Position numbers and translations under genes: made by a program
Notes under the pieces: generated by a model
The model's database searches: none
What the model was told of the DNA's origin: nothing
What the model saw: only the letters and a program-made list of their open reading frames with translations
Shown here: one piece after another, positions 11,765 to 28,138 of the stretch
How the letters are laid out: every line of letters starts with the position of its first letter
Position numbering within the stretch: the first letter of the stretch is position 1
Assembly (NCBI RefSeq): GCF_003385895.1
Contig: NZ_QRDQ01000007.1
Location: 620,001-684,000, forward strand
DNA: 64,000 bases
Source: Flavobacterium cutihirudinis
GTDB taxonomy: Bacteria; Bacteroidota; Bacteroidia; Flavobacteriales; Flavobacteriaceae
Direction of reading: 5' to 3'

Positions 11765-11790
11765 ACGTTATATAAATCAATATTTGTCAT

Positions 11791-11798
11791 TATCTTTG
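11791..11798 (+). promoter_or_regulatory. Bacteroidota -7 element before the glycan-locus regulator
   Basis: TATCTTTG at 11791-11798 matches the -7 consensus TAnnTTTG exactly. No clear TTG was found about 19 bases upstream. It lies just before the TTG start at 11817 and would place the transcript start near 11805. Confidence 0.5.
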
Positions 11799-11816
11799 AC
11801 TATAAAAACGAATATT

Positions 11817-14561
11817 TTGAAAACGATACTATATAAATTTCTTTTCTTCTTTTTCATCGCTTCGCAACTTCAGGCACAAGAATTACTTCCTTTCGTTGAA
11901 AACTACAATAAATCAGATTATCAAGGAGATAACCAAATCTGGAACATCGCCCAAGGAAGAGATAAAGCAATGTATTTTGCCAATAATCATTATCTTTTAA
12001 GATATGATGGTGTAGTTTGGGAAAAATATTTTTTACCTAATAAAACGATTATTCGTTCTATCTTAATTGAGGGCGACCGCATTTATTCAGGGTCATATAA
12101 AGAATTTGGATATTGGCATAGAAAAAATGGTAAGATGTATTATGTTTCCATTACCAAAAATCTAAGATTATTTGACGAAAAAGATAATGAAGAAATCTGG
12201 AAAATTTTCAGGTATAATGGCGCATTGTATTTTCAATCCTTTAATGATGTATTTATTTATGATGGAAAACAAATTAAGAAAATCAAATTTCCATTTTTGA
12301 TTTCTTATTGTTTCGTTGTAGATAAAAATCTCTATGTTGCTTCGGTAAATAAAGGTATTTTTAGAATGAATGGATCTAGAATTTCAAATCCAAAAGGATG
12401 GGATATTCTTAAAAATACGGTTGTACATGCTATTGAAAAGTACAAAGACAAAGCATATATTTTTACACAAAAAAGAGGAATTTTTACTATTGAAAAAAAT
12501 GGACTTAAAGCTTGGGATAATCCGCTAAATGAAACTCTGAAATCTAACGGAATTAATGTCGCAAAATTTATTAAAAATGACAAACTTGTTGTAGGAACGG
12601 GAAATAAAGGTGTTTTTATATTCGATTTCAAAACTAATACGTATAAGAACATTGATAGAAATAATGTTCTAATGAACAATTCTGTTTTAACCATTGGTTT
12701 TGATAAAGAAGGTGATTTGTGGCTTGGCCTTGATAACGGAATTGCTCATGTTGAGGTTAATTCGCCAATTTCATTTTTTTATGATAACTCCGGTATTTTA
12801 GGTTCTGTTTATTCTGTTGCTACAACGGCAAAGGGTTATTTAATTGCTTCAAATCATGGTATTTTCGAATTTGATTCGGGTATTTTTAAATTGTTACCCA
12901 ATACACAAGGGCAAGGTTGGAATATTACGAAAATTGGAAATAAATATCTAATAGGCCACAACGACGGAACTTTTTGCTATGAAAATGGGGCTTTAACTAA
13001 AGTTAATAATGTAAGCGGCGGATGGAATTTATCTAAAAGTATTATAAATGACACCTATTTTCAGTCGACTTACAGCGGTGTTTTAGTTTATAGTGATATT
13101 TCTGATTTAGCTAAAAGTAAAGAATTTAAAGATCTTACCAAACCAATTAAATATGTCGCTCAAAATAAAAGAAATGAGATTTGGGCAGCAGATAATTATC
13201 GTGGTTTGTATCGTGTACTTTTTGACGAAAATTACAATACTTTAAATGTTGAAAATATAACACAACAAAGTAAGATTAAAAATGACTTTGGCGTTAAGAT
13301 TTTTGAATTCAGAGAAGAAATTCTTTTTTTAATAAATAATGTTTGGTATACCTTCAATTCTATCTCCAATAAATTGGAGGAAAATGAATTGTTCAACAGT
13401 AATTTCAAAAATATTTCGGATGTTGTAGCAATCGATGAAAATCATTTTATTGTATTGCAGGATGGTATTTTATATCATATTTATGCAGATGGAAATAAGT
13501 TTTTATGGAACATTATTCAGGAGAAATATTACAAAGGAAAGTTGATTAATGAAAATCTTCGAATTTTTAAAAGTAATAACCATTATTTGATGAATTTGGA
13601 TGATGGGTTTATTTCGCTTCAATTAGGATATCAAAACAAACAAAATAAAGGCGTAAAGGTCGAAGCTTACAATGATGAATCTTTATTGGAAGATGGCGGG
13701 AAAATTAAACACAATACGGAACTTACGATAAATGTTATTTCCGGTATATATGGAGCAAGTAAGCCTAATTTGTTTTATCAGATTAACAGAGAGAAAAAAT
13801 TTATTCCAATTTCGAATGGAAAAATAGTACTGAACAATTTAAGCAGTGGTTCTCATTCTATAATTATATTTAAGCATGACGGTGCCAGTTATGAAGAAGT
13901 ATCCAGTTTTGACTTCAAGGTTTCTCAGCCGTGGTATTTTTCATTTTGGATGATTATACTTTATTTGTTGCTAATAGGAGCAATCCTCTTTTTCTATTAT
14001 AAATGGAATAAGTTGCGTTATACCCAAAAACTTAAATTGCAAGGAGAAGAATTAAAGCATCAGCGTGAAATTCTTGAAATGGAACTCAAAAAAGAAAATG
14101 AACTAAACCTTCAGGAATATGAAAAACACATTCTGGAACTCGAGTTGCAAACTAAATCTTCAGAAGTTGCCGGAAAATCTCTATCTATTGCCAAACAAAG
14201 CGAAATGATTGATAATATTCAGAATATTCTAGATTCTGAAAAAGACTTCAATAAATTGAAGAGTGAAATCAAAAAAGTCATTAAAATTAATGAGGTAAAC
14301 AAACATGAATGGGAGATTTTTGAAACCAATCTGAATCAGATTCACAATGAGTTTATAATTAATTTGTCCAAGAAGTTTCCAAATCTTACTCCAAAGGATA
14401 TAAAACTGTGTGTTTATCTTAAAATGAACCTTTCTTCAAAGGAAATTGCGCCTATGATGAACATCTCTTTCAGAGGTGTAGAATTACACAGATATCGATT
14501 AAGAAAGAAGCTAAACCTTTCGCAAGAAGAAAACCTATCAAAATTTTTATTAACTGTGTAA
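11817..14561 (+). CDS. Transmembrane one-component regulator: beta-propeller sensor, Y_Y_Y domain, LuxR-type HTH
   Basis: This regulator of about 914 residues spans the inner membrane. A signal peptide (MKTILYKFLFFFFIASQLQAQ) leads to a long periplasmic region of Reg_prop-type propeller blades (for example DKEGDLWLGLDNGIAHVEV). A Y_Y_Y (triple-tyrosine) domain, one transmembrane helix (about 710-730, FWMIILYLLLIGAILFF), a coiled coil and a C-terminal LuxR-type helix-turn-helix (FPNLTPKDIKLCVYLKMNLS, then SKEIAPMMNIS) follow. There is no kinase or receiver domain. Such proteins sit beside susCD pairs and are thought to bind the imported oligosaccharide. I choose the TTG at 11817: the frame opens at a TTG at 11784, but a -7 promoter element at 11791-11798 lies between them. 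susC is 244 bases downstream. Confidence 0.9.
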   Translation: MKTILYKFLFFFFIASQLQAQELLPFVENYNKSDYQGDNQIWNIAQGRDKAMYFANNHYLLRYDGVVWEKYFLPNKTIIRSILIEGDRIYSGSYKEFGYWHRKNGKMYYVSITKNLRLFDEKDNEEIWKIFRYNGALYFQSFNDVFIYDGKQIKKIKFPFLISYCFVVDKNLYVASVNKGIFRMNGSRISNPKGWDILKNTVVHAIEKYKDKAYIFTQKRGIFTIEKNGLKAWDNPLNETLKSNGINVAKFIKNDKLVVGTGNKGVFIFDFKTNTYKNIDRNNVLMNNSVLTIGFDKEGDLWLGLDNGIAHVEVNSPISFFYDNSGILGSVYSVATTAKGYLIASNHGIFEFDSGIFKLLPNTQGQGWNITKIGNKYLIGHNDGTFCYENGALTKVNNVSGGWNLSKSIINDTYFQSTYSGVLVYSDISDLAKSKEFKDLTKPIKYVAQNKRNEIWAADNYRGLYRVLFDENYNTLNVENITQQSKIKNDFGVKIFEFREEILFLINNVWYTFNSISNKLEENELFNSNFKNISDVVAIDENHFIVLQDGILYHIYADGNKFLWNIIQEKYYKGKLINENLRIFKSNNHYLMNLDDGFISLQLGYQNKQNKGVKVEAYNDESLLEDGGKIKHNTELTINVISGIYGASKPNLFYQINREKKFIPISNGKIVLNNLSSGSHSIIIFKHDGASYEEVSSFDFKVSQPWYFSFWMIILYLLLIGAILFFYYKWNKLRYTQKLKLQGEELKHQREILEMELKKENELNLQEYEKHILELELQTKSSEVAGKSLSIAKQSEMIDNIQNILDSEKDFNKLKSEIKKVIKINEVNKHEWEIFETNLNQIHNEFIINLSKKFPNLTPKDIKLCVYLKMNLSSKEIAPMMNISFRGVELHRYRLRKKLNLSQEENLSKFLLTV

Positions 14562-14622
14562 GATTTGCTTTTGAATTTTATACATATTCTATTTTTTTAC
14601 TTCTTTTTTTATATAATTCTAA

Positions 14623-14749
14623 TACATCATTACTACATCATAAGGTAATGTTAACGAAAATAAATTAACAAATAGGGTATTGATTTTTAGTACTATACGA
14701 ATGTTTTTTAACACAATGATGTAGCTATGTAGTAGTGCAAACTGATGTA
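14623..14749. promoter_or_regulatory. susC upstream region with four TGATGTA boxes
   Basis: The 244-base gap before susC has TACATCA at 14623-14629 and 14634-14640 (11 apart) and its complement TGATGTA at 14717-14723 and 14743-14749 (26 apart). The two pairs therefore face each other in inverted orientation. Related GTAGTA sequences sit beside them. This is a plausible operator array for the LuxR-type regulator encoded just upstream. Binding is inferred from position and repetition only. No good -33/-7 promoter could be fixed here. Confidence 0.45.
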
Positions 14750-14805
14750 CTACAACGTTGTAATTGTTTAATTTGGCTCTACTAACTTAAACGATTACGT
14801 ACTGT

Positions 14806-17800
14806 ATGAAAAATTTTATTTTTAGCTTTTTAGCACTCTTGTTGCTGCCTACCTACATGATGGGGCAAGCACAAGCAATTAAAGGAAAAGTAGTGGACAG
14901 CAGCGGAATGGGTATTCCTGGAGCAATAATTGCTTCATCTGATGCGAGGGCGACTGCTGACGCAGATTTCGACGGAAACTTCACAATTAATGCAAAACCT
15001 GGAGACATCTTAAAAGTTTCTATGTTAGGTTTTGATGCAGTTTCTGTACCGGCAACTGCCGCACCAATGACAATTACTTTAAAGGAGGCAGGTGATACTG
15101 CTTTAAAAGAAGTACTGGTAATTGGTTACGGTACAAGAAAGAAAATTGATAATACTTCGGCTGTAAGCTCAATTAAGTCAGAAGAAATTACCAAAATGAA
15201 GGTTTTAAACGCTTCGCAAGCTATACAAGGTAAAGCTGCCGGAGTTCAGGTTTCTACTTCAGATGCACCAGGAAGCACGCCTTCAGTTGTAATTAGGGGA
15301 GCAGGTACTGCATTAGGAGGAAGAAATCCTTTATATGTTGTAGATGGTATGCCTACTGAAAATATCAATAATATTAATACTAATGATATTACGTCTTATG
15401 AAATTTTAAAAGACGCTTCGTCATTAGCTATTTATGGTACAAGAGGTGCAAATGGTGTAATTATGATTACAACCAAAGCTGGTAAAGGAAAACTTACTGT
15501 AGATGTAGAAAGCTTTGCAGGGGTTAGAAGTCCTTTAAAAACTGTAAAAATGGCAAATGCTGATGAGTATGTTCGTTACAGCAACGCCGCTTACATCAAC
15601 GATTTTCCTCAAGGAAGATTTTCTGCAAATCAGCCATACAATACTGATTGGCTAGATGCAATCACAAGAACAGGATCTTATACTCAGAATAATATTGCGA
15701 TTTCAGGATCTTCAGAAAATGTAAAATATTTTTTTAGTGTTGGAAATTATGAAGAAAAAGGAATTTTAAACGGATCTGATTACGGTCGTACAACGATTAG
15801 AAATAATAATGAGTTTAAACTTTCTGATAAGGTAAAAATAACTCAAAATTTAAGCGTAAGTAGTATAAAAAATACACCAATGCCTTTAAGTGCATTTACT
15901 AATGCTTACAGACAATCTCCTCTAGTTCCTGTTCGTTATGCTGATGGTAAATACGGTGTGCCATTTGTTTCTAATGGAATTGTTGCTGAAAGTGGTACAT
16001 CTTTTAACAATGTTGGAAATCCTGTAGCTCAATTAGATTATACAAATGAACAGCAGCAAACTGTTATGTTGCAAGGTGGATTGAAATTAGATTATGATAT
16101 TATTAAATCTTTAAAATTTACTTCACAATTTAACGGAGAATATTATAACTACAAGCAATATAATTATGTAGATAATCAGGCTCTTTGGTTGTCAGCAGAT
16201 CCTACTCGTGTAGTATCAAAGTATCCTGGCGATTTGAACATAAACACTTTGACAAGAGGTAGAGACGAATATTTTAATTGGAATTTATCTAACTATCTTA
16301 CATACAATAAACTTTTTGCAGAAATTCACGACGTTGAAGTTACAGCAGGTATTGAAGCAAATGTTCAAGGAACCAGAGAGAAGTTAACTATTGACAGAAA
16401 GAATGTAAATGCGAACTCAAATTACTGGTCTTTAAAAGATGTTAATGTTGCAGGTACTGTTACAGGTTTTAAAGACGAGGCTCTTAATCAAAGAAGATTA
16501 GCATCTTATTTTGCACGTTTTCAATATAAATTGCTAGACAGATATTTGGTAACAGGTACTGTAAGACGTGATGGTTCATCTCAATTTGCTGAAGACAAAC
16601 GTTGGGGAACATTTCCATCTGTTGGTTTAGGATGGATAGTTTCAAAAGAAAGTTTTTTGAGTAATGTAGAGCCAATTAATCTATTAAAAATTAGAGGTTC
16701 TTGGGGTAGATTAGGAAATCAAAATGTACCTCTTAATACTCAGCTATTAACTTCAGGACTTGATTATTCTGGATTAGGTTCTGGTACTACAATTAATTCG
16801 CAAGTAGATCCTAATTTATCTTGGGAAATTGTTGAAGAACTTTCAGGAGGTTTTGATTTTGAAGTGCTGGATAGCAGATTAAAAGGATCATTTGATGTGT
16901 ATGATAAAAATACAACAAATACAATTTTGAATGTTAAACCATATTCAACTTCTGGAATTACGGTAGCTACACCAGCACATGTTGGAGAAGTATCTAATAA
17001 AGGTTATGAAATTGCTTTACGTTGGGATGATAAAATAACTGACAATTTAAGTTACTGGGTGGGAGGAAATTTTTCTCACAATAAAAATGAACTTACAAGT
17101 CTTAAAAACGTTCAGTTAAATCCAATTATTGGAGGAAGTTTAGGAAATGGTCAAAACACTAAAATTCTTGATAATACTTCTGTAGGACAACCGTTAGGTA
17201 GTTTTTTCATGTATGAATATGCAGGAGTTGATCCAACAAATGGTCAAATGTTATACTACAAAGCAGATGGGTCTAAGGTTGCTCAATCAGGATTAGACGA
17301 ACTTAAAGATAAAAAATACGTAGGTTCTCTTTTACCAACGTCTAATTATGGAGTTACTTTAGGATTAACTTACAAAAACATTGATTTCTCTGTTGATGGT
17401 TATGGAACAGGAGGAGCAAAAGTTTATAATGGAAAAAAAGCACAAAGATTTGGAGGAGAAAATGTAGAAGCTTCTATGGCTAATGGTTTTTGGACACCAA
17501 CGAATACTACATCTTCAATTCCAGCACCTTCTAATTTAGTTCCTTATGCTTCAACATATTATTTAGAATCTGCGGACTTCTTTAGAATCAATAACATCAC
17601 TTTAGGATATAAACTTCCATTAAGAGAAAACAACTTTATTAGCTATTGTAGATTATATGTAAATGCAATTAACCCATTTATTACACAAAAATTCTCTGGA
17701 TTCTCACCAGATGTAGTTTCTGATGGTAAGTTAGTTGAAGGTACTCAGGGTGTTGAGCTAGATGCTTACCCTTCATTGAGATCATTTGTTGTAGGTGCAA

Positions 17801-17814
17801 ATTTAAAATTTTAA
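14806..17814 (+). CDS. SusC/RagA family TonB-dependent outer-membrane transporter
   Basis: A 1002-residue outer-membrane importer. After the signal peptide (MKNFIFSFLALLLLPTYMMGQ) comes a carboxypeptidase-regulatory-like beta-sandwich (about 24-95, IKGKVVDSSGMGIPGA). The plug domain begins at about 105 (EVLVIGYGTRKK) and carries PLYVVDGMPTENINNIN and ILKDASSLAIYGTRGANGVI, all standard for SusC. A 22-strand barrel ends in an aromatic Phe (GANLKF). No STN domain is present, so it should not signal through an anti-sigma factor, which fits the separate regulator upstream. With SusD, four bases downstream, it imports oligosaccharides powered by TonB; by context the substrate is a beta-1,2-linked glucan fragment. 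Confidence 0.97.
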   Translation: MKNFIFSFLALLLLPTYMMGQAQAIKGKVVDSSGMGIPGAIIASSDARATADADFDGNFTINAKPGDILKVSMLGFDAVSVPATAAPMTITLKEAGDTALKEVLVIGYGTRKKIDNTSAVSSIKSEEITKMKVLNASQAIQGKAAGVQVSTSDAPGSTPSVVIRGAGTALGGRNPLYVVDGMPTENINNINTNDITSYEILKDASSLAIYGTRGANGVIMITTKAGKGKLTVDVESFAGVRSPLKTVKMANADEYVRYSNAAYINDFPQGRFSANQPYNTDWLDAITRTGSYTQNNIAISGSSENVKYFFSVGNYEEKGILNGSDYGRTTIRNNNEFKLSDKVKITQNLSVSSIKNTPMPLSAFTNAYRQSPLVPVRYADGKYGVPFVSNGIVAESGTSFNNVGNPVAQLDYTNEQQQTVMLQGGLKLDYDIIKSLKFTSQFNGEYYNYKQYNYVDNQALWLSADPTRVVSKYPGDLNINTLTRGRDEYFNWNLSNYLTYNKLFAEIHDVEVTAGIEANVQGTREKLTIDRKNVNANSNYWSLKDVNVAGTVTGFKDEALNQRRLASYFARFQYKLLDRYLVTGTVRRDGSSQFAEDKRWGTFPSVGLGWIVSKESFLSNVEPINLLKIRGSWGRLGNQNVPLNTQLLTSGLDYSGLGSGTTINSQVDPNLSWEIVEELSGGFDFEVLDSRLKGSFDVYDKNTTNTILNVKPYSTSGITVATPAHVGEVSNKGYEIALRWDDKITDNLSYWVGGNFSHNKNELTSLKNVQLNPIIGGSLGNGQNTKILDNTSVGQPLGSFFMYEYAGVDPTNGQMLYYKADGSKVAQSGLDELKDKKYVGSLLPTSNYGVTLGLTYKNIDFSVDGYGTGGAKVYNGKKAQRFGGENVEASMANGFWTPTNTTSSIPAPSNLVPYASTYYLESADFFRINNITLGYKLPLRENNFISYCRLYVNAINPFITQKFSGFSPDVVSDGKLVEGTQGVELDAYPSLRSFVVGANLKF

Positions 17815-17818
17815 TATC

Positions 17819-19282
17819 ATGAAAAGAATATATATATCAATGTTTGTACTTTCTGGATTATTCTTATCTGGATGTTCAAATGATTTTTTAGATGTAGAAC
17901 CAACAGAAGCTATTCCAGCTGATCCAAATTTGGTAAATAGTGATGATGGAGCTAAAGGCTTTGTTACTGCAATTTACAATCAATTTTTAGGATGGGAAAT
18001 GTCTTCTTTTGGATGGAATGCAGTCTCAAGTATAATCTCAGATGATGCTGATAAAGGATCAGATCCAGGAGATACAGGGGGAGATAAAGATATTGTTGAT
18101 GCATTGACATATAATGCTTCAACAGCATCATTTGAATCTACTTGGAATGCAAATTATGCAGGAATTAACAGATGTAATCAAGCATTAGCAATGTTCCCTA
18201 AATTAGATAAAGCATCACCTGATTTAAAAGCAAGATTAGTTGGAGAAACAAAATTCATGAGAGCTTTCATGTATTTTACTTTAGTAAAAGGGTATGGCGG
18301 AGTTCCAATCATAGATCATTTGGCTACCGTTCCAATTTCTGAAGAAGATAGAAAAATGCAATTGACACGTAAGTCAGTGGCTGAAGTTTATGCCTTTATA
18401 GAACAAGATTTAAATGATGCTATTGCGGCTCTACCTGTAAAATCAGCATATACTGGAGCAGATGTTGTAAGAGCTTCTAAAGGAGCTGCATATGCTTTAT
18501 TAGCAAAAGTAAATCTATACCAAAAAAACTGGCAAAAAGTAATTGACAATTGTGATAAAGTAACAGGTTATTCTTTAGTTTCTGATTATGCTTTACAGTA
18601 TAAAAAAGAAGGAGAATTTGGTCCAGAATCTATTTTCGAAATAAACGGAGTAGGTTCAACTTCTAGCCCTGGATTCGGAATTGGAAATTATACTGTTTCT
18701 CAAGCACCTCGTGGAGCTGGAGGTTGGGGTTGGGGATTCAATACACCAACTAAAGGTTTAGCAGATGCATATGAGGCAGGAGATGTTAGAAGAGCTGCTA
18801 CAATTATTTTCAGAGGTTCAACATTGTATGATGGTAGAGAAGTAGCATCAACTGTAGCAAACCCAAGATATAATTATAAAGCATATTCATCATCTTTTTA
18901 TAATCAAGAATTTACAGATACAAATCTTAGATATTTAAGATATGCCGAAGTTATCTTAATGAAAGCTGAAGCCTTAAATGAATTAGGAGACACATCAGCA
19001 GCGATTCCTTTAGTAAATCAGATTCGTAAAAGAGCAGGTTTAGGAAATACTCCTTTCACTTCGCAAAGTGATATTAGAAAAGCAATCTATAAAGAAAGAA
19101 GATTAGAATTTGCTTTTGAGCATGACAGATGGTTTGATATTGTTAGAACAGGACAAGCTGAAGCAGCAATGGCAGCAGATGGCAAAACTTTTATTGTTGG
19201 AAAACATGAGTTATGGCCTATACCAACTTCATTCTTAAGAGAAGCGAATGGACTTTCTGACCAAAATCCAGGTGGATATTAA
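17819..19282 (+). CDS. SusD/RagB family surface glycan-binding lipoprotein
   Basis: A 487-residue lipoprotein with the lipobox LFLSGC; Cys19 is followed by SNDFLD, an acidic surface-export type signal. The rest is the helical TPR-rich SusD fold: FMRAFMYFTLVKGYGGVPII, then VNQIRKRAGLG and the C-terminal YKERRLEFAFEHDRWFDIVRTG, all diagnostic. It forms the hinged lid of the SusC transporter and chooses the ligand. The stop is followed by a strong stem-loop that separates the transport genes from the enzymes downstream. Substrate is inferred from the neighbouring GH144 and GH3 enzymes. Confidence 0.97.
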   Translation: MKRIYISMFVLSGLFLSGCSNDFLDVEPTEAIPADPNLVNSDDGAKGFVTAIYNQFLGWEMSSFGWNAVSSIISDDADKGSDPGDTGGDKDIVDALTYNASTASFESTWNANYAGINRCNQALAMFPKLDKASPDLKARLVGETKFMRAFMYFTLVKGYGGVPIIDHLATVPISEEDRKMQLTRKSVAEVYAFIEQDLNDAIAALPVKSAYTGADVVRASKGAAYALLAKVNLYQKNWQKVIDNCDKVTGYSLVSDYALQYKKEGEFGPESIFEINGVGSTSSPGFGIGNYTVSQAPRGAGGWGWGFNTPTKGLADAYEAGDVRRAATIIFRGSTLYDGREVASTVANPRYNYKAYSSSFYNQEFTDTNLRYLRYAEVILMKAEALNELGDTSAAIPLVNQIRKRAGLGNTPFTSQSDIRKAIYKERRLEFAFEHDRWFDIVRTGQAEAAMAADGKTFIVGKHELWPIPTSFLREANGLSDQNPGGY

Positions 19283-19295
19283 TCAAAATCTTAAA

Positions 19296-19329
19296 AATCA
19301 CTTCCTTCAGGAAACTGAAGGAAGTGATT
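19296..19329 (+). promoter_or_regulatory. Intercistronic stem-loop between susD and the glucanase gene
   Basis: AATCACTTCCTTCAG (19296-19310) pairs fully with CTGAAGGAAGTGATT (19315-19329) around a GAAA tetraloop. The stem is 15 bp. What follows is ATTTTC rather than a clean T run, so it may terminate only partly, or protect the 3' end of the susCD message and let enzyme genes be made at a lower level. Confidence 0.75.
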
Positions 19330-19354
19330 ATTTTCAAAATCTTAAATTTTTATA

Positions 19355-20731
19355 ATGGTTAGAATTTCAGTTTTATTTTTAGCTTTTACTTTCTTTAGTT
19401 GTGGATCTAGTGCTGATAAGTTAAAAGGAAATACGGTAGAAAATAGTTCTGGCGTTGCTACATTAACTGATGAACAGCTTTTAGATGCTGTTCAAAAACA
19501 AACGTTTAAATATTTCTGGGATTACGCAGAACCTAATTCTGGATTGGCGAGGGAACGTTATCATCCAGACGGAAATTATCCAGAAAATGATTCCAATATT
19601 GTAACTACAGGTGGTTCAGGTTTTGGATTAATGGCTCTTGTTTCAGGAATGTCTCAAGGATATATTACTAAAGAACAAGGAGTAGATAGACTTAACAAAA
19701 TTGCATATTTTTTAGGTAAAGCAGATCGTTTTCACGGTGCATGGTCACATTGGATTGATGGAAATACAGGAAAAGTAAAGCCTTTTGGAACCAAAGATAA
19801 TGGTGGAGATTTAGTTGAAACTTCATTTTTGGTTGCAGGAATGATTACCGTTCGTGAATATCTAAAAGACGGTTCTGAAAAAGAAAAAGCAGTAGCTCAA
19901 AAATATGATGCACTATGGCAAGGTGTGGACTGGCAATGGTACACTAACAATAAAAACGTTTTGTATTGGCACTGGTCACCAACTTATGATTGGCAAATGA
20001 ACTTTGCTTTACAGGGATATAATGAATGTTTGATTACTTATGTAATGGCAGCATCTTCGCCAACGCATACAATTGACGCTAAAGTATATCATGAGGGCTG
20101 GGCTAGAAATGGTGGAATTGTTTCTTCAAAAACAAAATATAATATTCCACTTATTTTAAAGCATAATGGAGCAGAAGAATTTGGTGGGCCTTTATTTTGG
20201 GCGCATTATTCTTATGTCGGTTTAGATCCAAATCAATTGAGTGATAAATACGCTAATTATTGGGATTTGAATGTAAATCAAACCAAAATCAATTATGATT
20301 ATTGTGTAGAAAATCCAAATAAAAATGCAGGATATGGTCCTGAATATTGGGGTTTAACAGCATCATATTCAAGAAATCCTGATGGTTCAATTGGTTATAA
20401 CGCACACATGCCAAGCAATGATCAAGGTGTAGTTTCTCCAACCGCTGCAATCAGTTCAATTGTCTATACTCCAAAAGAATCGATGGCTTTTATCCGCAAT
20501 TTATATGAAAATCATAACGAAGAAACTTGGGGAGATGCAGGTTTTTATGATGCATTAAGTTTAGGAAATAAATGGGTAGCAAAACGATATTTAGCAATAG
20601 ATCAAGGTCCTGAAGTTGTAATGATCGAAAATTATAGAACAGGATTATTGTGGAAATTGTTTATGAATGCACCAGAAGTAAAACAAGGTCTAACAAAACT
20701 TGGATTTAAATCTGGAAAATACGGGATCTAA
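19355..20731 (+). CDS. GH144-type endo-beta-1,2-glucanase (glycoamylase-like domain), lipoprotein
   Basis: A 458-residue surface or periplasmic lipoprotein (FTFFSC lipobox, Cys16) with the (alpha/alpha)6 domain annotated as glycoamylase, the family that contains GH144 endo-beta-1,2-glucanases of Chitinophaga and Parabacteroides. Typical stretches are LLDAVQKQTFKYFWDYA, VTTGGSGFGLMALVSGM, DNGGDLVETSFLVAGM and HWSPTYDWQMNFALQGYNE. It should cut linear or cyclic beta-1,2-glucan into sophoro-oligosaccharides. It is the first enzyme gene after susCD and is followed, 8 and 10 bases apart, by the esterase and GH3 genes. Family call is strong; the beta-1,2 specificity rests on the family plus the GH3 neighbour. 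Confidence 0.82.
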   Translation: MVRISVLFLAFTFFSCGSSADKLKGNTVENSSGVATLTDEQLLDAVQKQTFKYFWDYAEPNSGLARERYHPDGNYPENDSNIVTTGGSGFGLMALVSGMSQGYITKEQGVDRLNKIAYFLGKADRFHGAWSHWIDGNTGKVKPFGTKDNGGDLVETSFLVAGMITVREYLKDGSEKEKAVAQKYDALWQGVDWQWYTNNKNVLYWHWSPTYDWQMNFALQGYNECLITYVMAASSPTHTIDAKVYHEGWARNGGIVSSKTKYNIPLILKHNGAEEFGGPLFWAHYSYVGLDPNQLSDKYANYWDLNVNQTKINYDYCVENPNKNAGYGPEYWGLTASYSRNPDGSIGYNAHMPSNDQGVVSPTAAISSIVYTPKESMAFIRNLYENHNEETWGDAGFYDALSLGNKWVAKRYLAIDQGPEVVMIENYRTGLLWKLFMNAPEVKQGLTKLGFKSGKYGI

Positions 20732-20739
20732 AAAATAAC

Positions 20740-21453
20740 ATGAAATATAAATTAGCTTTTTTATCTCTTTTAGTTTCCTTTTTAGGCTTTAGCCAAAGTG
20801 AAACAACCGGAAAAATTAATACCGTTATAATGTCGAAGTATGAACTTGGTTATGTACTGCATAAACCGGCAAATACAAAAGAGAAAAAACCTTTAATAGT
20901 TTTTCTTTCTGGAGATGGTGAAAAAGGAACTGATATTGAAAAAGTAAAAATTCATGGTCCCTTACAGTATTTAAAAACACATCAATTAGATGCTTACGTT
21001 CTGGCTCCACAGTGTAAAGAGAATGAAAATTGGGATATTGAATCGATTTATCAGCTCATTGTAAAAATTCAGAAAGAAAACAAAATCGATTCAGAAAGAA
21101 TATATGTTACTGGTTTGAGCTCAGGAGGTTGGGCTTCTTGGAATTTGGCTTTTGCACATCCGGATCTATTTGCAGCTAACGTACCTGTCGCTGGTTTTGT
21201 AGATTTAATTCAGTTAGAGCACGCTTGTGAAATAGCCAATATTCCAACCAGAATTTACCACGGGTTATTAGATGATATAGTAAACGTGAACTATGCGATC
21301 ACGATTTACAAAGAATTAAAAAAATGCAATGCAAAAGATGTAAAGCTGACCATTTTTGACGATGCAAACCACAACAGCTGGACAAGAGTTTATGATAATC
21401 AGGAAATCTATGACTGGATGTTTCAGCAGAAAAAAACGAATACAAACAAATAA
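20740..21453 (+). CDS. Secreted alpha/beta-hydrolase (esterase / dienelactone-hydrolase-like)
   Basis: A 237-residue alpha/beta hydrolase with a signal peptide (MKYKLAFLSLLVSFLGFSQS). The nucleophile is Ser127 in GLSSGGWASW; the Asp in GLLDDIVNV and the His in DDANHNSW complete the triad. It resembles the PUL-associated proteins labelled prolyl-oligopeptidase-family or phospholipase/carboxylesterase, which are usually sugar esterases. Sitting between the glucanase and the GH3 beta-glucosidase, it most likely removes acyl groups (for example succinyl) from the glycan. That substrate is an inference; nothing in the sequence names it. It is translationally close to both neighbours. Confidence 0.8.
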   Translation: MKYKLAFLSLLVSFLGFSQSETTGKINTVIMSKYELGYVLHKPANTKEKKPLIVFLSGDGEKGTDIEKVKIHGPLQYLKTHQLDAYVLAPQCKENENWDIESIYQLIVKIQKENKIDSERIYVTGLSSGGWASWNLAFAHPDLFAANVPVAGFVDLIQLEHACEIANIPTRIYHGLLDDIVNVNYAITIYKELKKCNAKDVKLTIFDDANHNSWTRVYDNQEIYDWMFQQKKTNTNK

Positions 21454-21463
21454 ATAAATTAGA

Positions 21464-23764
21464 ATGAAAAACAAATTAGTCTTGCTTTTTTTAGGATGTG
21501 CTGTTTTGGGTTACGCTCAAAAGAAGCCTGCTAAAAATACAGTAAAAATTAAACCAAAGTCTGAATTTGTAGCAGAGTTAATGTCAAAAATGACTTTAGA
21601 CGAGAAATTGGGTCAGTTAAACTTGCCGACATCTGGTGATATTACCACAGGGCAGGCAAACAGCTCAAATGTGGCAAAAAATATTGCTGAAGGTAAAGTG
21701 GGCGGTTTGTTCAACATTAAATCAGTTCAAAAAATTAAAGAAGTACAGAAAATTGCTGTTGAAAAAAGCCGTTTAAAGATTCCGTTGCTTTTTGGTATGG
21801 ACGTTATTCATGGTTACGAAACAACATTCCCAATTCCATTAGGATTATCTTGTACTTGGGATATGGCTTTAATTGAAAGAAGTGCTCAAATTGCTGCTAA
21901 AGAAGCAAGTGCAGATGGAATCAACTGGACATTTTCTCCAATGGTTGATATTTCTCGTGATCCTCGTTGGGGAAGAGTTTCTGAAGGTTCAGGAGAAGAT
22001 CCGTACTTAGGAAGCCAAATTGCAAAAGCAATGGTAAACGGTTACCAGCAGCATGATCTTTCAAAAAACAACTCAATTTTAGCTTGCGTAAAACACTTCG
22101 CATTATATGGAGCTCCAGAAGGCGGACGTGATTACAACACCGTAGATATGAGCCACATTAGAATGTTTAATGACTATTTTCCTCCATACAAAGCGGCAGT
22201 TGACGCTGGCGTAGGTTCGGTTATGGCATCTTTTAACGAAGTTGACGGAATTCCAGCAACGGGAAACAAATGGTTAATGACAGATGTTTTAAGAAAACAA
22301 TGGGGTTTCAAAGGATTTGTAGTAACCGATTTTACTGGAATTCCTGAAATGATTCCGCACGGAATGGGAGATTTACAACAAGTTTCTGCTTTAGCATTAA
22401 ATGCAGGAGTTGAAATGGATATGGTTGGAGAAGGTTTCTTAGGAACTTTGAAAAAATCTTTAGACGAAGGAAAAGTAAAAATCGAAACAATCGATAATGC
22501 TGTAAAACTTATTTTAGAAGCAAAATACGATTTAGGATTATTCCAGGATCCATACAAATATTGTGATGAGAAAAGAGCTAAAACTGAAATCTTCACAACA
22601 GACAGCAGAAAAGAAGCACGTCAAATCGCATCACAATCATTGGTATTGTTGAAAAACCAAAACCAATTATTACCACTTAAAAAATCAGGTACAATTGGTT
22701 TAATCGGACCATTGGCAGATGCTAAAGAAAACATGCCAGGAACTTGGAGTGTGGCTACAAAAATGGAAAATGCTGTTTCATTATTAAGAGGAATTAAAGA
22801 AGTTGCTGGAGCTGGAACGAAAGTTTTATATGCAAAAGGAAGCAATTTAGATTACGATGAAACTTTTGAAACTAATGCTACAATGTTCGGTAAAACGTTA
22901 CACCGTGATGCTCGTACAAAAGAAGAATTATTAGCAGAAGCTTTGAAAGTGGCTGAGCAGTCAGATGTAATTGTGGCGGCTTTAGGAGAATCTGCAGAAA
23001 TGAGTGGTGAATCAAGCAGCCGTACAAACTTGGAAATTCCACAAGCTCAAAAAGATTTATTGAATGCTTTATTGAAAACAGGAAAACCAGTTGTTTTGGT
23101 TTTATTTGACGGACGTCCATTAGTAATTACTGATGAAGAAAAAACAGTGCCTGCCATTTTAAATGCTTGGTTTGCGGGTACAGAAGCGGGTTATGCTATT
23201 GCTGATGTACTATTTGGAGATGTAAACCCTTCTGGAAAATTGACTTCAACTTTCCCAAGAAGTGTTGGTCAATTGCCAATTTACTACGCACACAAAAATA
23301 CAGGAAGACCACTTTCTAATACAGAAGGAAAATTCGAAAAATTCAGATCAAACTATATTGACGAAAGAAACGAGCCTTTATTTCCATTCGGATTTGGTTT
23401 AAGCTATACAACTTTCGATTATTCAAATATTAAAATTTCTTCGGATAAAATGAACGCGACTGGAAAAGTAAAAGTAACAGTTGATGTAGCGAACACAGGA
23501 AATTTTGACGGAAAAGAAACGGTTCAATTATATATTAGAGATTTAGTTGGTTCTGTAACAAGACCAGTTAGAGAATTGAAAGGTTTTCATAAAATAACAC
23601 TTAAAAAAGGTGAAAAACAAACAGTAAGTTTTGACATTACTGTTGAAGATTTAAAATTTTATAATTCTGACTTACAATTTGTAGCAGAACCTGGACAGTT
23701 TGAAGTTTTCGTTGGAGGAAATTCAGCTGCCGACAAGAAAGTTAGTTTTGAGTTAACTAATTAA
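21464..23764 (+). CDS. GH3 beta-glucosidase (BglX type)
   Basis: A 766-residue exported enzyme (signal MKNKLVLLFLGCAVLGYAQ). The N-terminal (beta/alpha)8 barrel holds GMDVIHGYETTFPIPLGL and WTFSPMVDISRDPRWGR, and the catalytic nucleophile Asp289 in FVVTDFTGI. The second alpha/beta domain carries the acid/base region MSGESSSRTNLEIP. A fibronectin-III-like domain ends the protein (about 665-766). It releases glucose from the non-reducing end of beta-gluco-oligosaccharides in the periplasm. A related Bacteroides thetaiotaomicron GH3 prefers sophorose-type beta-1,2 substrates, which would fit the glucanase upstream. It ends the first enzyme transcript, with a terminator 23 bases on. Confidence 0.95.
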   Translation: MKNKLVLLFLGCAVLGYAQKKPAKNTVKIKPKSEFVAELMSKMTLDEKLGQLNLPTSGDITTGQANSSNVAKNIAEGKVGGLFNIKSVQKIKEVQKIAVEKSRLKIPLLFGMDVIHGYETTFPIPLGLSCTWDMALIERSAQIAAKEASADGINWTFSPMVDISRDPRWGRVSEGSGEDPYLGSQIAKAMVNGYQQHDLSKNNSILACVKHFALYGAPEGGRDYNTVDMSHIRMFNDYFPPYKAAVDAGVGSVMASFNEVDGIPATGNKWLMTDVLRKQWGFKGFVVTDFTGIPEMIPHGMGDLQQVSALALNAGVEMDMVGEGFLGTLKKSLDEGKVKIETIDNAVKLILEAKYDLGLFQDPYKYCDEKRAKTEIFTTDSRKEARQIASQSLVLLKNQNQLLPLKKSGTIGLIGPLADAKENMPGTWSVATKMENAVSLLRGIKEVAGAGTKVLYAKGSNLDYDETFETNATMFGKTLHRDARTKEELLAEALKVAEQSDVIVAALGESAEMSGESSSRTNLEIPQAQKDLLNALLKTGKPVVLVLFDGRPLVITDEEKTVPAILNAWFAGTEAGYAIADVLFGDVNPSGKLTSTFPRSVGQLPIYYAHKNTGRPLSNTEGKFEKFRSNYIDERNEPLFPFGFGLSYTTFDYSNIKISSDKMNATGKVKVTVDVANTGNFDGKETVQLYIRDLVGSVTRPVRELKGFHKITLKKGEKQTVSFDITVEDLKFYNSDLQFVAEPGQFEVFVGGNSAADKKVSFELTN

Positions 23765-23786
23765 GTTGGTTTATTGATTAGTAATT

Positions 23787-23822
23787 AGCCCTTCGTGTTT
23801 GGTTAGCGAAGGGCTTTTTTTC
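23787..23822 (+). terminator. GH3 gene terminator
   Basis: AGCCCTTCG (23787-23795) pairs with CGAAGGGCT (23807-23815), followed by seven T. It divides the locus into a glucanase-esterase-GH3 unit and a GDPD-GH43 unit. Confidence 0.9.
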
Positions 23823-23854
23823 TAAAATAAAAATCAATTTTAAAATTAAACGAA

Positions 23855-24631
23855 ATGAAAAATTTTAGAGTATGGAGTTCAGCTGTACTACTGGTTGTTT
23901 TTTCTTCCTGCACTGCACAGAAAAATGCAATTGTAGCACATCGTGGCGCATGGAAAAAGAATAATCTTCCTGAAAACTCTCTCGCGTCGTTAAGACATGC
24001 AATCGATTTAAAATTACCGGGTTCAGAATTTGATGTTTGGAGAACGGCAGACGATTCACTTGTCATCAATCATGATGCACATTATAATAAACTACTTATT
24101 GAAGAAACTAAATATGCTGATTTAATAGCTTTTAAACTTTCTAACGGAGAAAAACTTCCAACGTTGCACGAATATATTTCGGAAGGAAAAAGAAACAATA
24201 AACACACGCTTTTGGTGTGCGAAATAAAACCTTCAGAAATCAGTAAAGAAAGAGGGCAAAAAACCGCTTTAATGTCGGTTGAAGTCATTAAAAAACTAAA
24301 GGCAGACAAAAACACTTGTTACATCAGTTTTGATTACGAGATTCTAAAAGCAATAAGAAAAGCAGATCCTAAAACTTCTTTGCAATATTTGGAAGGAAAT
24401 AAATCTCCTAAAGAAGTTAAAGCAGATAAAATTAACGGAGTTGATTATCATTATTCAGTCTTTAAAAAACATCCGGAATGGATTCAGGAAGCAAAGGATA
24501 ATAAAATTATTCTAAACGCTTGGACGGTAAATGAAGCTTCAGATATGGATTGGATTATAGAGCATAAATTCAATTACATCACCACAAACGAACCAGAACT
24601 TTTAAGTGAGCGATTAAAAATCAAAAAATAA
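23855..24631 (+). CDS. Glycerophosphodiester phosphodiesterase family lipoprotein
   Basis: A 258-residue lipoprotein (lipobox VFSSC) with a complete GDPD TIM barrel. The catalytic and metal-binding pattern is intact: VAHRGAWKKNNLPENSLAS, then EFDVWRTADDSLVINHD, CEIKPS, and the C-terminal LNAWTVNEASDMDWI. The family hydrolyses glycerophosphodiesters with Ca2+ or Mg2+ and a His-His pair. As a membrane-anchored exported protein inside a beta-1,2-glucan locus, it is well placed to remove phosphoglycerol groups that decorate proteobacterial cyclic and periplasmic glucans; this role is inferred from context. A general role in phospholipid salvage is the alternative. It is 28 bases ahead of the GH43 gene. 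Confidence 0.9.
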   Translation: MKNFRVWSSAVLLVVFSSCTAQKNAIVAHRGAWKKNNLPENSLASLRHAIDLKLPGSEFDVWRTADDSLVINHDAHYNKLLIEETKYADLIAFKLSNGEKLPTLHEYISEGKRNNKHTLLVCEIKPSEISKERGQKTALMSVEVIKKLKADKNTCYISFDYEILKAIRKADPKTSLQYLEGNKSPKEVKADKINGVDYHYSVFKKHPEWIQEAKDNKIILNAWTVNEASDMDWIIEHKFNYITTNEPELLSERLKIKK

Positions 24632-24659
24632 TCCTGAGCTTACTAACATCAATCAAACA

Positions 24660-26579
24660 ATGAAAAAAAGATATAAACTGTTTGCGTTGCCAATTTTATT
24701 TGTGATCCTTTTTAATCACAATCTTTTGGCCCAAAAAGTAGGTAAAACCGAATGGTTTGATCCTAATAAACCTGCCACTACTTATTGTAACCCAATTAAT
24801 ATTGGTTACAATTATACAACTTACAATCATAACGGAATTCCATATTCCCGTCGTTCTAGCGCAGATCCCGTTATTATAACTTATAAAGGCGAATATTATT
24901 TGTTTGCGACGAATCAGGCTGGTTTCTTTTGGAGTAAAGACATGTCAGATTGGAATTTCGTTTACGGAAGTTTTCAAAGACAGCCAGGTGATGATGACCA
25001 ATGTGCGCCGGCTGCTTGGGTTGTAAATGACACTTTGTTTTATGTAGGTTCAACATGGAAAAGAGATCATCCAATATGGAAAACGGCTGATCCAAAATCA
25101 GGAAGATGGACACGTCACGTAGATAAAGCAATGCTTCCAACCTGGGATCCTGCTATTTTTCAGGACGATGACAAAAAAGTGTACATGTATTACGGTTCAA
25201 GTGGAAAATTACCGCTTGTTGGTGTAGAAGTAGATTATAATACCTGGCTTCCAAAAGGAAATCAGGCTGATTACGCAGAATTGTATAAAGCGACTGAAGT
25301 TGAGGATATTCAGAAAGTGTACGGAAAAGTGAAAGAAGTGGCAATTTTAGATCCGTCAGCTCACGGTTGGGAACGTTTTGGACCCAATAATGATATGGAA
25401 CCAGCACCTTGGGGCAATTTTATAGAAGGAGCTTGGATGACGAAACACAACGGAAAATATTACATGCAATATGGAGCTCCCGCTACTGAATTTAAAGGTT
25501 ATGCAAATGGTGTTCATGTTGGTGATAATCCGTTAGGGCCATTTGTGTATCAAAAACATAATCCAATGTCTTATAAACCAGGCGGATTTGTAATTGGAGC
25601 AGGACATGGAAATACTTTCGCAGATAACTATGGAAATTATTGGAACACAGGAACGTGCAAAATATCTATAAAAGATCGTTTTGAACGTCGTATCGATATG
25701 TTTCCTGCCGGATTCGATAAAGATGATGTAATGTATTCTATTACTTCGTATGGAGATTTTCCAATCGTATTGCCAACAGGTAACCGAGATCAGACAAAAG
25801 GTGCTTCATCAGGTTGGATGTTACTTTCGTATAAAAAACCTGTAACAGTTTCTTCTTCTGAAGAATGTATGGAAGTTGAAACGCACAGAATGGATAATGG
25901 CGGTAAAAAAGTGTATGAGAAATTCTGTTATGGTCCTGAGAATTTGACCGATGAAAATATTCAGACTTATTGGTCTGCCAAAACAAGTAACCCGGGTGAA
26001 TGGCTTCAAATGGATTTAGGAAGACAAATGGAAATTAATGCATTGCAGATTAATTATGCAGATCATAAAGCAACGCAGTATAATAAAGCAATGGATATTT
26101 ATTATCAGTATAAAATATTCATGTCTGATGATGCTGTAAATTGGACTTTGGTTGTCGATAAATCTAAAAATGATAAAGATGTGCCACACGATTATGTTGA
26201 ATTGAGTAAATCTATAAAAGCGCGTTACATCAAAATGGAGAATATTCATAATGCTTCTGGATTATTTGCTATTTCAGATTTCAGAGTTTTTGGAAAAGGA
26301 TTGGCAGTAGAACCAAAAACAGTTTCTTCTTTTAAAGTAGACAGAAATAAAAAAGATTCCCGAAATGCTATGATTTCCTGGAAAAAACAAAGTGACGCAA
26401 TTGGCTATACGATTTACTACGGAATTAGTCCGGAAAAATTGTATAATAACATAATGGTTTACGACCAGAATTCATACGATTTTAGAGGTTTGGATAAAGG
26501 GACAAATTATTATTTTACAATTGAAGCTTTTAATGAAAATGGTATTGGTCAAAAAAGTAAAATTTTGGAAGTGAAGTAA
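24660..26579 (+). CDS. GH43-like glycoside hydrolase with F5/8-type C (discoidin) and fibronectin III domains
   Basis: A 639-residue exported enzyme (signal ending in HNLLAQ). Residues about 40-400 form a five-bladed GH43-type propeller. The likely catalytic trio is Asp69 in SSADPVII, Asp163 in TWDPAIFQDDD and Glu256 in IEGAWM. Residues about 410-545 resemble a discoidin carbohydrate-binding domain (WSAKTSNPGEWLQMDLG), and 548-639 a fibronectin III domain. GH43 members mostly remove arabinose, xylose or galactose, so the natural bond here is uncertain and its presence in a beta-1,2-glucan locus is odd. It is the last gene of the second enzyme unit. Confidence 0.8.
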   Translation: MKKRYKLFALPILFVILFNHNLLAQKVGKTEWFDPNKPATTYCNPINIGYNYTTYNHNGIPYSRRSSADPVIITYKGEYYLFATNQAGFFWSKDMSDWNFVYGSFQRQPGDDDQCAPAAWVVNDTLFYVGSTWKRDHPIWKTADPKSGRWTRHVDKAMLPTWDPAIFQDDDKKVYMYYGSSGKLPLVGVEVDYNTWLPKGNQADYAELYKATEVEDIQKVYGKVKEVAILDPSAHGWERFGPNNDMEPAPWGNFIEGAWMTKHNGKYYMQYGAPATEFKGYANGVHVGDNPLGPFVYQKHNPMSYKPGGFVIGAGHGNTFADNYGNYWNTGTCKISIKDRFERRIDMFPAGFDKDDVMYSITSYGDFPIVLPTGNRDQTKGASSGWMLLSYKKPVTVSSSEECMEVETHRMDNGGKKVYEKFCYGPENLTDENIQTYWSAKTSNPGEWLQMDLGRQMEINALQINYADHKATQYNKAMDIYYQYKIFMSDDAVNWTLVVDKSKNDKDVPHDYVELSKSIKARYIKMENIHNASGLFAISDFRVFGKGLAVEPKTVSSFKVDRNKKDSRNAMISWKKQSDAIGYTIYYGISPEKLYNNIMVYDQNSYDFRGLDKGTNYYFTIEAFNENGIGQKSKILEVK

Positions 26580-26646: not shown

Positions 26647-26746
26647 GTTAAAAGACTAAAGAAAAGCTTCTGAAATGTAAAGAATTTTGTTCCTTTGTGA
26701 ATATGTCACAGGCATACCAAAGAACTCCAAAATTACTATAACAACT

Positions 26747-28138
26747 ATGAAAAAAACGATTCTTTTAACTGCATTAGTTTTAAGCGGATTAACATCTGTT
26801 GCTCAGTCAACAGATCAAAACAACATCAAATTATTTTACAAAAAAGCATTAACCGAAGCTAAATGTTATTCTTGGCTAGAATATTTATCGAATGATATCG
26901 GAAGCCGTTTGTCTGGTTCTAAAGGTGCGGCAGAGGGTGTAGAATACACTAAAAGACAATTAGAAAGTCTTGGGTTAGACAAAGTGTATCTTCAGGAAGT
27001 AATGGTGCCACATTGGGTTAGAGGAGAAAAAGAAACCGCTTACGTTTTAGACGGAAAAGTAAAAACAGTCGTGCCAATTTGCGCATTGGGAGGTTCTGTT
27101 GCAACTCCAAAAACAGGAATTACCGCTGAGGTGATTGAAGTACAGGGTATTAAAGAATTAAACGAGTTAGGGACAGATAAAGTAAAAGGTAAAATTGTGT
27201 TTTTCAATAGACCAATGAATCCGGAAAACATTGAAACTTTTACATCTTATGGTGCATGCGTTGATCAAAGATACGCAGGTGCTAAAGAAGCAGCAAAACT
27301 GGGTGCTGTAGGATCAATTGTTCGTTCTATGAATTTACGTTTAGACGACTTTCCTCATACAGGAGCTCAAAGTTATGGAGATCTTCCAAAGGAGCAATAT
27401 ATTCCTACGGCTGCCATCAGTACAAATGGAGCGGAATTATTAAGTAAATCATTAAAAGTAAATCCAGCTTTGAAATTTTATTTCAAACAATCTTGTGAAA
27501 CATTACCGGATGTATTATCATACAATGTAATTGGAGAATTAACAGGTACTGTAACTCCTCAAAACATTATGGTTGTTGGAGGACATTTAGATTCTTGGGA
27601 TTTAGCCGATGGTTCTCATGATGATGGAGCAGGAGTAGTGCAAAGTATGGAAGTATTAAGAATATTGAAAAACTTAAATTACAAACCTAAAAATACGATT
27701 CGTGTTGTTTTATTCATGAATGAAGAAAATGGCGGAAAAGGAGGAGCTAAATATGAAGAAGTTTCTAAACAAAAGAAAGAGAATCATATTTTTGCTTTAG
27801 AAAGTGATTCAGGCGGATTTTCTCCAAGAGGATTTTCTATTGAAGCTGACGATGCTAATTTGAAAAAAATTCAGGGATATAAAGATCTTTTCGAGCCATA
27901 TTTAGTACATAGTTTTACAATTGGGCACGCAGGTTCAGATATTGGTCACTTAACTTCACAAGCAATTGTTAAAGCTGGTTTAAAACCGGATTCACAACGT
28001 TACTTTGATTATCATCACGCTGCAAATGATAAATTTGATGCTATTAATAAAAGAGAATTAGAACTTGGAGCTGCAACAATGACTTCTTTGATGTATTTGT
28101 TAGATCAAAACGGAATCGAATTACCGAAAGCGAACTAA
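26747..28138 (+). CDS. Secreted M28 family metallopeptidase (aminopeptidase)
   Basis: A 463-residue exported zinc peptidase. Start chosen at the ATG at 26747 (MKKTILLTALVLSGLTSVAQS, a clear signal peptide); the in-frame ATG 20 codons upstream only adds non-signal residues. A protease-associated (PA) insert lies at about 110-250. The catalytic domain has all five M28 zinc ligands in order: GGHLDSWD, SHDDGAG, MNEENGG, ESDSGG and YHHAANDKFD. M28 enzymes trim amino acids from peptides, working in the periplasm or outside the cell. It stands alone between two terminators, so I do not count it as part of the glycan locus. Confidence 0.93.
   Translation: MKKTILLTALVLSGLTSVAQSTDQNNIKLFYKKALTEAKCYSWLEYLSNDIGSRLSGSKGAAEGVEYTKRQLESLGLDKVYLQEVMVPHWVRGEKETAYVLDGKVKTVVPICALGGSVATPKTGITAEVIEVQGIKELNELGTDKVKGKIVFFNRPMNPENIETFTSYGACVDQRYAGAKEAAKLGAVGSIVRSMNLRLDDFPHTGAQSYGDLPKEQYIPTAAISTNGAELLSKSLKVNPALKFYFKQSCETLPDVLSYNVIGELTGTVTPQNIMVVGGHLDSWDLADGSHDDGAGVVQSMEVLRILKNLNYKPKNTIRVVLFMNEENGGKGGAKYEEVSKQKKENHIFALESDSGGFSPRGFSIEADDANLKKIQGYKDLFEPYLVHSFTIGHAGSDIGHLTSQAIVKAGLKPDSQRYFDYHHAANDKFDAINKRELELGAATMTSLMYLLDQNGIELPKAN

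Follow-up and report, generated by a model that had tools for sequence, protein, structure and literature searches.

A PUL of the beta-1,2-glucan type in Flavobacterium cutihirudinis with an exported GDPD that may remove phosphodiester decorations

Phosphoglycerol has long been known as a decoration of periplasmic glucans. In the open-access literature searched, no enzyme by which a scavenger removes this group has been described and no paper on a GDPD within a PUL was found; groups working on beta-1,2-glucans may have reported some phosphoglycerol-removing enzyme. A locus of Flavobacterium cutihirudinis, in which the gene of an exported GDPD stands in line with that of a GH144 glucanase, raises the question of what such a protein contributes to the degradation of a glucan. 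The window analysed comprises 64,000 nucleotides (contig NZ_QRDQ01000007.1, positions 620,001 to 684,000, forward strand). There is, in our judgement, about an even chance that the locus is a PUL for beta-1,2-glucans of other bacteria, in which the GDPD hydrolyses phosphodiester substituents, most likely phosphoglycerol.

Eight genes, all of them open frames on the + strand, follow each other head to tail and closely packed at 11784-26579 of the window; the gene behind them is added as last line.

11784..14561, + strand: one-component regulator of the LuxR/Reg_prop type with a beta-propeller-type N-terminal part and a LuxR-type HTH (start codon 11784 or 11817)
14806..17814, + strand: susC, SusC-type TonB-dependent transporter (TIGR04056, 724 bits, 4e-217)
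17819..19282, + strand: susD, predicted SusD-type glycan-binding lipoprotein (SusD/NanU models matched below cut-offs; lipobox-like Cys by eye)
19355..20731, + strand: GH144 of the endo-beta-1,2-glucanase type, probable lipoprotein and lead backbone cutter (PF10091, 263 bits; PDB 5gzh)
20740..21453, + strand: exported alpha/beta-hydrolase esterase, candidate deacylase (Peptidase_S9/Abhydrolase_2/DLH; PDB esterase 3doh, 1.2e-25)
21464..23764, + strand: GH3 beta-glucosidase, predicted periplasmic (3u48, 1173 bits; 5xxl, 1098 bits; BglX model over cut-off)
23855..24631, + strand: exported GDPD of a PUL subfamily, predicted remover of phosphodiester decorations (PF03009, 89 bits)
24660..26579, + strand: exported GH43 with F5/8 type C and fn3 (Pfam GH43, 64.3 bits)
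26687..28138, + strand: M28 peptidase, a neighbour probably outside the locus, which it borders in many genus relatives too

This succession in one direction, as read in the initial annotation, is borne out by the frames and the family matches; equally, the regulator gene proposed there stands, with its start at 11817, as given there, or at 11784. By eye, the regulator has one apparent TM stretch. The gaps from susC onward measure 4, 72, 8, 10, 90 and 28 bp, with 244 bp upstream of susC; pta and ackA precede the locus, the M28 peptidase comes after it, and among 10 further window genes scanned glycan-degrading families are absent. Adjacent susC and susD genes, CAZymes and a regulator identify the locus as a PUL and, because its gene order is kept across the genus, it is more than a chance assembly. 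The own genome holds GH144 once and PF03009 three times, with just one of these matches within the locus.

The nature of the backbone is the best-supported part of the reading. In a sequence search, GH144 matches PDB 5gzh (Endo-beta-1,2-glucanase) with E 1.8e-177 over residues 14-453, which is near full length, and in the alignment to the solved endo-beta-1,2-glucanase 5gzh/5gzk KDNGGDLVETSF and YNECL are conserved and the acidic residues kept, some of these residues presumably having the roles that we assign to them. Equally, GH3 aligns well with 3u48 and, over its full length, with 5xxl, which we take to be BT_3567. Since both proteins match solved enzymes of the beta-1,2-glucan type, beta-1,2-glucan is, as judged from these sequences, the likely backbone. 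The available part of a review counts GH144 among the beta-1,2-glucanase families and names E142 as a residue of CpSGL (PMC11842490).

Several peculiarities of GH144 loci may be recorded here. In five genus loci (L063, L071, L078, L082, L084), GH144 and, less so, susC/susD (window 14806-20731) have apparently been exchanged as a cassette within an otherwise constant locus, with 58-60% identity to the window for GH144, 91-97% for GH3 and 91-94% for GH43; in all five a LamG-domain gene precedes GH144. Second GH144 copies (L092:6243-10808, L093:8983-13262, L094:6402-10763) are unusually long or adjoining ORFs; in L092 a single protein of 1521 aa combines GH144 with an alpha-L-fucosidase domain and a Por secretion tail, whereas L093 has GH144 and alpha-L-fucosidase as neighbouring ORFs. 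Of 20 GH144 loci of non-genus Flavobacteriaceae (L143-L162), 14 carry two GH144 genes and 11 a sulfatase-family gene, the latter in agreement with the remark, in the available text of PMC6499787, that GH144 PULs are among the abundant PULs of Bacteroidetes and that marine ones add a sulfatase.

How regularly does the GDPD accompany GH144? A GH144 match is present in 62 of 150 genus genomes, the own included, and the counts refer to 57 primary GH144 loci read beside that of the window, seven of the 67 match rows beyond the window's having been left out (five partial, two second copies). The loci read span 3-21 kb, so that a gene past the edge is counted as absent, in the tree labels as well. 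Gene labels in relatives derive from Pfam for the loci scanned and otherwise from BLAST against labelled examples, and the distances between GH144 and GDPD in the genus, family and class samples were compared by eye. The regulator is found in 55 of the 57 loci, GH3 likewise in 55, GH43 in 50, the esterase in 45 and the GDPD in 25, in all of which it lies between GH3 and GH43; 32 loci are devoid of it. Of 102 PF03009 matches in 61 other genus genomes, one gene being split into two matches, 25 fall by eye into the GH144 locus and 77 outside; two of the 77 (G062, G043) score like the locus subfamily but are on different contigs, their assemblies being fragmented. Mapped onto a regulator tree built from 55 loci, presence or absence of the GDPD switches at least five times, with 23 of the 25 GDPD loci united in one main clade, in which three of 26 rows are without GDPD, and two (L055, L091) outside it.

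The protein itself exceeds the PF03009 cut-off of 23.6 bits by far and displays the conserved H/R/E/D/H/E set of the family, with H29, R30, E58, D60, H73, E123 and K125, presumably with catalytic roles, unchanged throughout the 146 domains of the subfamily. By eye, the N-terminus presents a signal-like stretch followed by a lipobox-like Cys; a crude lipobox pattern is matched by 14 of 25 genus GDPDs and by 43 of 61 GH144 ORFs. The structural model, a GDPD barrel (pLDDT 89.6), is closest to 7wwc (Z 36.0, rmsd 1.4, 233 aligned) and 3no3 (Z 35.3), with glycerol-3-phosphate-bound 3qvq at Z 27.3 and 5t9c (GlpQ) at Z 26.7 (rmsd 2.2, 227 aligned). The closest solved relative is a GDPD-glucanase fusion, and 7wwc holds laminaritriose. 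The canonical UgpQ/GlpQ type is not what is found in the locus: compared with 2pz0 and with one own paralogue, the window subfamily is missing the TNGxG loop that follows the second conserved His in canonical GDPDs and that we take to belong to the GDPD insertion near the active site. A more open site would suit a polymer-bound diester.

Beyond the genus, the linkage is patchy. In 299 Flavobacteriaceae-type genomes, which comprise the own genome and one member of the genus, a GDPD of the subfamily (E 1e-30) occurs 23 times and GH144 (E 1e-60) in 75 genomes, the former count likewise being one of genomes; none of the 14 non-genus genomes with both genes has them linked, short contigs being able to hide a case, and none of the 20 non-genus GH144 loci read holds a GDPD. 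In the class sample the GDPD occurs in 28 of 395 genomes; 16 of the 23 carriers outside the family also have GH144, with linkage in one of the 16 (G742, 0 bp between the ORFs). The Chitinophagaceae-type family, to which G742 appears to belong, has the GDPD in 55 of 244 genomes and GH144 in 46 of the 52 newly tested, which gives, G742 and G818 included, 48 genomes with both genes. Six of the 48 have them within 10 kb (0.42 expected under random placement) and four within ~1 kb (0.04 expected); the P value for the 10-kb distance, 6e-6 or 8e-5 without the seed genome, takes no account of relatedness, two of the linked genomes being from one genus, or of the tendency of PUL genes to cluster. Fifteen of the best 80 of 377 named GDPD loci hold GH144, seven of these with an esterase-family gene, which is no frequency because the 80 are those most similar to a GDPD linked with GH144; within this selection, Lacibacter cauensis, Lacibacter luteus, Ferruginibacter and Chitinophagaceae MAGs are represented. 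One such locus (L189) reads susC-susD-LamG-GH144-GDPD-GH3, and two others (L195, L204) nearly repeat the window's set in the order GH144-GH144-Exo_endo_phos-GH43-GH3-GDPD, with an esterase before the GDPD in L204. In a further Chitinophagaceae locus, preceded by a sigma/FecR pair of regulators, GH144 and GDPD are succeeded by a gene of the alpha-galactosidase type (Melibiase_2; L165:8078-9442). Linkage in relatives, proposed with the initial annotation as a check, is found in part of the genus and in a minority of the Chitinophagaceae-type genomes with both genes, and is missing from the other Flavobacteriaceae sampled and rare in the class outside the family.

The GDPD tree, with 146 domains of the subfamily and an outgroup (147 in all), places the genus GDPDs paired with GH144 into one clade of 26 rows (SH-aLRT 100), adjoined on weak forks (68-85) by L260, L211, the GDPD-GH16 fusion L246 and the GH16-neighboured L125, L250 and L252. 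The GH144-paired GDPDs of Chitinophagaceae are placed elsewhere, and the pairing needs nine changes on the tree, at least four of them on supported branches. Inheritance of the paired GDPDs as one module was considered and dismissed, a single clade being rejected with AU p 1.4e-93 on the 112 of 147 rows left after removal of duplicates, of twelve rows with long branches, of the outgroup and of most GDPDs from the genus. The pairing has thus arisen more than once, and nothing speaks more strongly for a useful action of the GDPD on the substrate of GH144 than this repeated, independent association.

GH144 is not the only glucanase with which the subfamily associates. Every long GDPD ORF, but none of the short ones, is matched by a GH16 profile built here; fusions of the GDPD to GH16, a family of the beta-1,3-glucanase type, make up 10 of 20 loci from Flavobacteriaceae, five of 20 from the class and 22 of 80 named ones (the best 80 of 377), in total 37 of 120 ORFs (80 of the 120 being that best 80 of 377), with confirmation by Pfam in three. 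Many of the fusions sit in loci of the order regulator-susC-susD-fusion-Exo_endo_phos-GH3. As the GDPD is shared with these GH16 contexts, it is a glucan-PUL module and no beta-1,2-glucan speciality. The initial annotation's beta-1,2-glucan-type PUL holds, with GDPD and esterase recurring beside GH144 in the genus and in Chitinophagaceae; its view of a dedicated system is not supported, in the light of the unlinked other Flavobacteriaceae, the genus loci without GDPD and the GH16 loci.

The same distribution bears on the proposal that the GDPD is a general glycerophosphodiesterase, carried as PUL cargo to scavenge phosphate or glycerol from lipids, with the GH144 pairing a product of PUL modularity. 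It would account for the GDPD being absent from 32 of 57 genus and 20 of 20 other GH144 loci, for its presence in GH16 loci and for the 40 of 146 rows labelled 'other', whose loci are without a recognised PUL gene. However, none of the 77 other PF03009 matches in the 61 genus genomes is within the GH144 locus, and the fusions to GH16 together with the repeated placement beside glucanases point to a glucan-bound substrate; we regard the cargo proposal as unlikely, though not negligible.

An Exo_endo_phos gene is present in 12 of 20 Flavobacteriaceae GDPD loci (Pfam of one), its product being related to PDB 4c1r, a mannosyl-6-phosphatase; such genes recur as neighbours of GDPD-GH16 fusions and also within some of the GH144 loci (L131:11012-11848, L146, L150, L195, L204). 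The GDPD might therewith remove phosphocholine or phosphoethanolamine instead of phosphoglycerol, the Exo_endo_phos protein of those other loci taking off the remaining sugar phosphate. According to a title in the reference list of PMC4881576, the beta-(1,3);(1,6) cyclic glucan of B. japonicum (Bradyrhizobium) is phosphocholine-substituted, and OPGs bear succinate, phosphoglycerol and phosphoethanolamine in the available part of PMC11842490. Weighed against the missing Exo_endo_phos gene in the window locus, its occurrence in two of 57 genus loci and the glycerol-3-phosphate held by GDPD relatives solved with product (3qvq, 5t9c), this alternative appears improbable. The cyclic glucans of S. 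fredii HH103, for which the available text of PMC4881576 reports phosphoglycerol as the only substituent, add a further parallel: the GH144 and GH16 contexts of the GDPD mirror, suggestively only, the phosphoglycerol-beta-1,2 and phosphocholine-beta-1,3/1,6 cyclic glucans of rhizobia, which would explain both contexts, while laminarin-type PULs would also explain that of GH16.

The remaining enzymes fit less readily. The esterase has only alpha/beta-hydrolase family matches, from which an action on succinyl or acetyl may at most be conjectured. GH43 (cut-off 32.2 bits) has D69, D163, D169 and E256 invariant in 18 of 18 sequences, among them presumably the catalytic triad; by sequence, even the best-matching solved enzyme is only weakly similar to it (6.7e-12). 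An assignment of its specificity by fold was abandoned, as in the low-confidence model (pLDDT 70.5) many rows of arabinofuranosidases, xylosidases and arabinanases are tied, so that no target can be named. Decoration with phosphoglycerol and succinyl does not explain GH43, nor GH97 of the sister loci. A heteropolysaccharide or teichoic-acid-like polymer of beta-1,2-glucose, pentose and glycerol phosphate, with GH43 trimming the pentose and the GDPD the glycerol phosphate, would suit the presence of GH43 in 50 of 57 genus loci, its nearest folds and the GDPD folds of phage spike proteins (9f5m, 9eul), but GH43 matches solved enzymes so weakly, and GH144 and GH3 look so much like homoglucan enzymes, that we consider such a substrate quite improbable.

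GH97 is encoded in 17 of the 57 genus loci, all of them without GDPD (L059:13422-15509 and 16 further), the two never occurring together (Fisher 4e-6). The idea of strict alternatives was given up: the regulator tree leaves four to five independent contrasts, with which a sign test cannot reach 0.05, and Chitinophagaceae loci hold both side by side (L192, L193, L245; L186 by Pfam). One member searched is close to the alpha-glucosidases 8wg0 and SusB. As alpha-1,6-closed beta-1,2-glucans exist (PMC11842490, available part), GH97 could conceivably open such rings.

From the gene content, the families, the conserved catalytic residues, the gene order and the repeated pairing, we infer a substrate, cellular places and an order of steps for what would be a PUL targeting beta-1,2-glucans made by other bacteria. 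GH144, probably at the cell surface, would cleave a cyclic or linear glucan, the pieces of which would be taken in by SusCD; the esterase would remove acyl esters, the GDPD would hydrolyse phosphodiester-linked substituents, most likely phosphoglycerol, that otherwise block the exo-enzyme, and GH3 would release glucose. Against this course of events stand the 0 of 14 and 1 of 16 linked genomes, the GH16 fusions, the genus loci without GDPD and a mismatch in stereochemistry: the phosphoglycerol of OPGs is sn-1, whereas characterised GlpQ prefers sn-glycerol-3-phosphate. A wider proposal, which we offer as tentative and rather doubtful, is that the subfamily is a general Bacteroidota module stripping phosphodiester decorations off proteobacterial periplasmic glucans, phosphoglycerol from beta-1,2-glucans with GH144 and phosphocholine from beta-1,3/1,6-glucans when fused to GH16, with Exo_endo_phos finishing the work in some loci. 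Neighbours' osmoregulatory polymers would then become food for carbon and phosphorus. If the reading of the locus is right, a candidate enzyme for the removal of phosphoglycerol by a scavenger is named, a GDPD in GH144 or GH16 loci becomes a genomic marker for bacteria that consume the envelope glucans of rhizobia and other Proteobacteria, and the enzyme might serve as a tool for mapping substituent positions.

In comparison with known systems, the window GH3 is alike, at 1098 bits over full length, to 5xxl, taken to be the B. thetaiotaomicron GH3. A GH3 of that organism prefers beta-1,2-glucooligosaccharides (PMC11842490, available part). With UgpQ/GlpQ-type glycerophosphodiesterases (2pz0, 5t9c) the window GDPD shares the fold and the conserved residues, while the TNGxG loop of that type is missing from its subfamily. 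Its GDPD domain is 52% identical, by structural alignment, to that of the GDPD-glucanase 7ww4/7wwc (Z 36.0), in which, unlike the free-standing protein beside GH144, the GDPD is fused to a beta-1,3(4)-glucanase; the source organism is Pedobacter terrae (PMC12448869, available part), the literature search yielded no paper describing these structures, and the available text of a modelling paper states that there is none. Like the GH144 beta-1,2-glucan PULs of Bacteroidetes, the window locus is a PUL with GH144, but the available text of PMC6499787 mentions phosphodiesterases (PF00149, PF01663) only for susC/D loci without CAZymes and not a GDPD with GH144. PULs of this kind are thus already described and the GDPD is the unusual element of the window locus, as initially remarked of its pairing with a beta-1,2-glucanase, although it is no singular case, recurring in the genus and in Chitinophagaceae; what is new is a recurrent, testable phosphodiesterase component in an already known kind of PUL.
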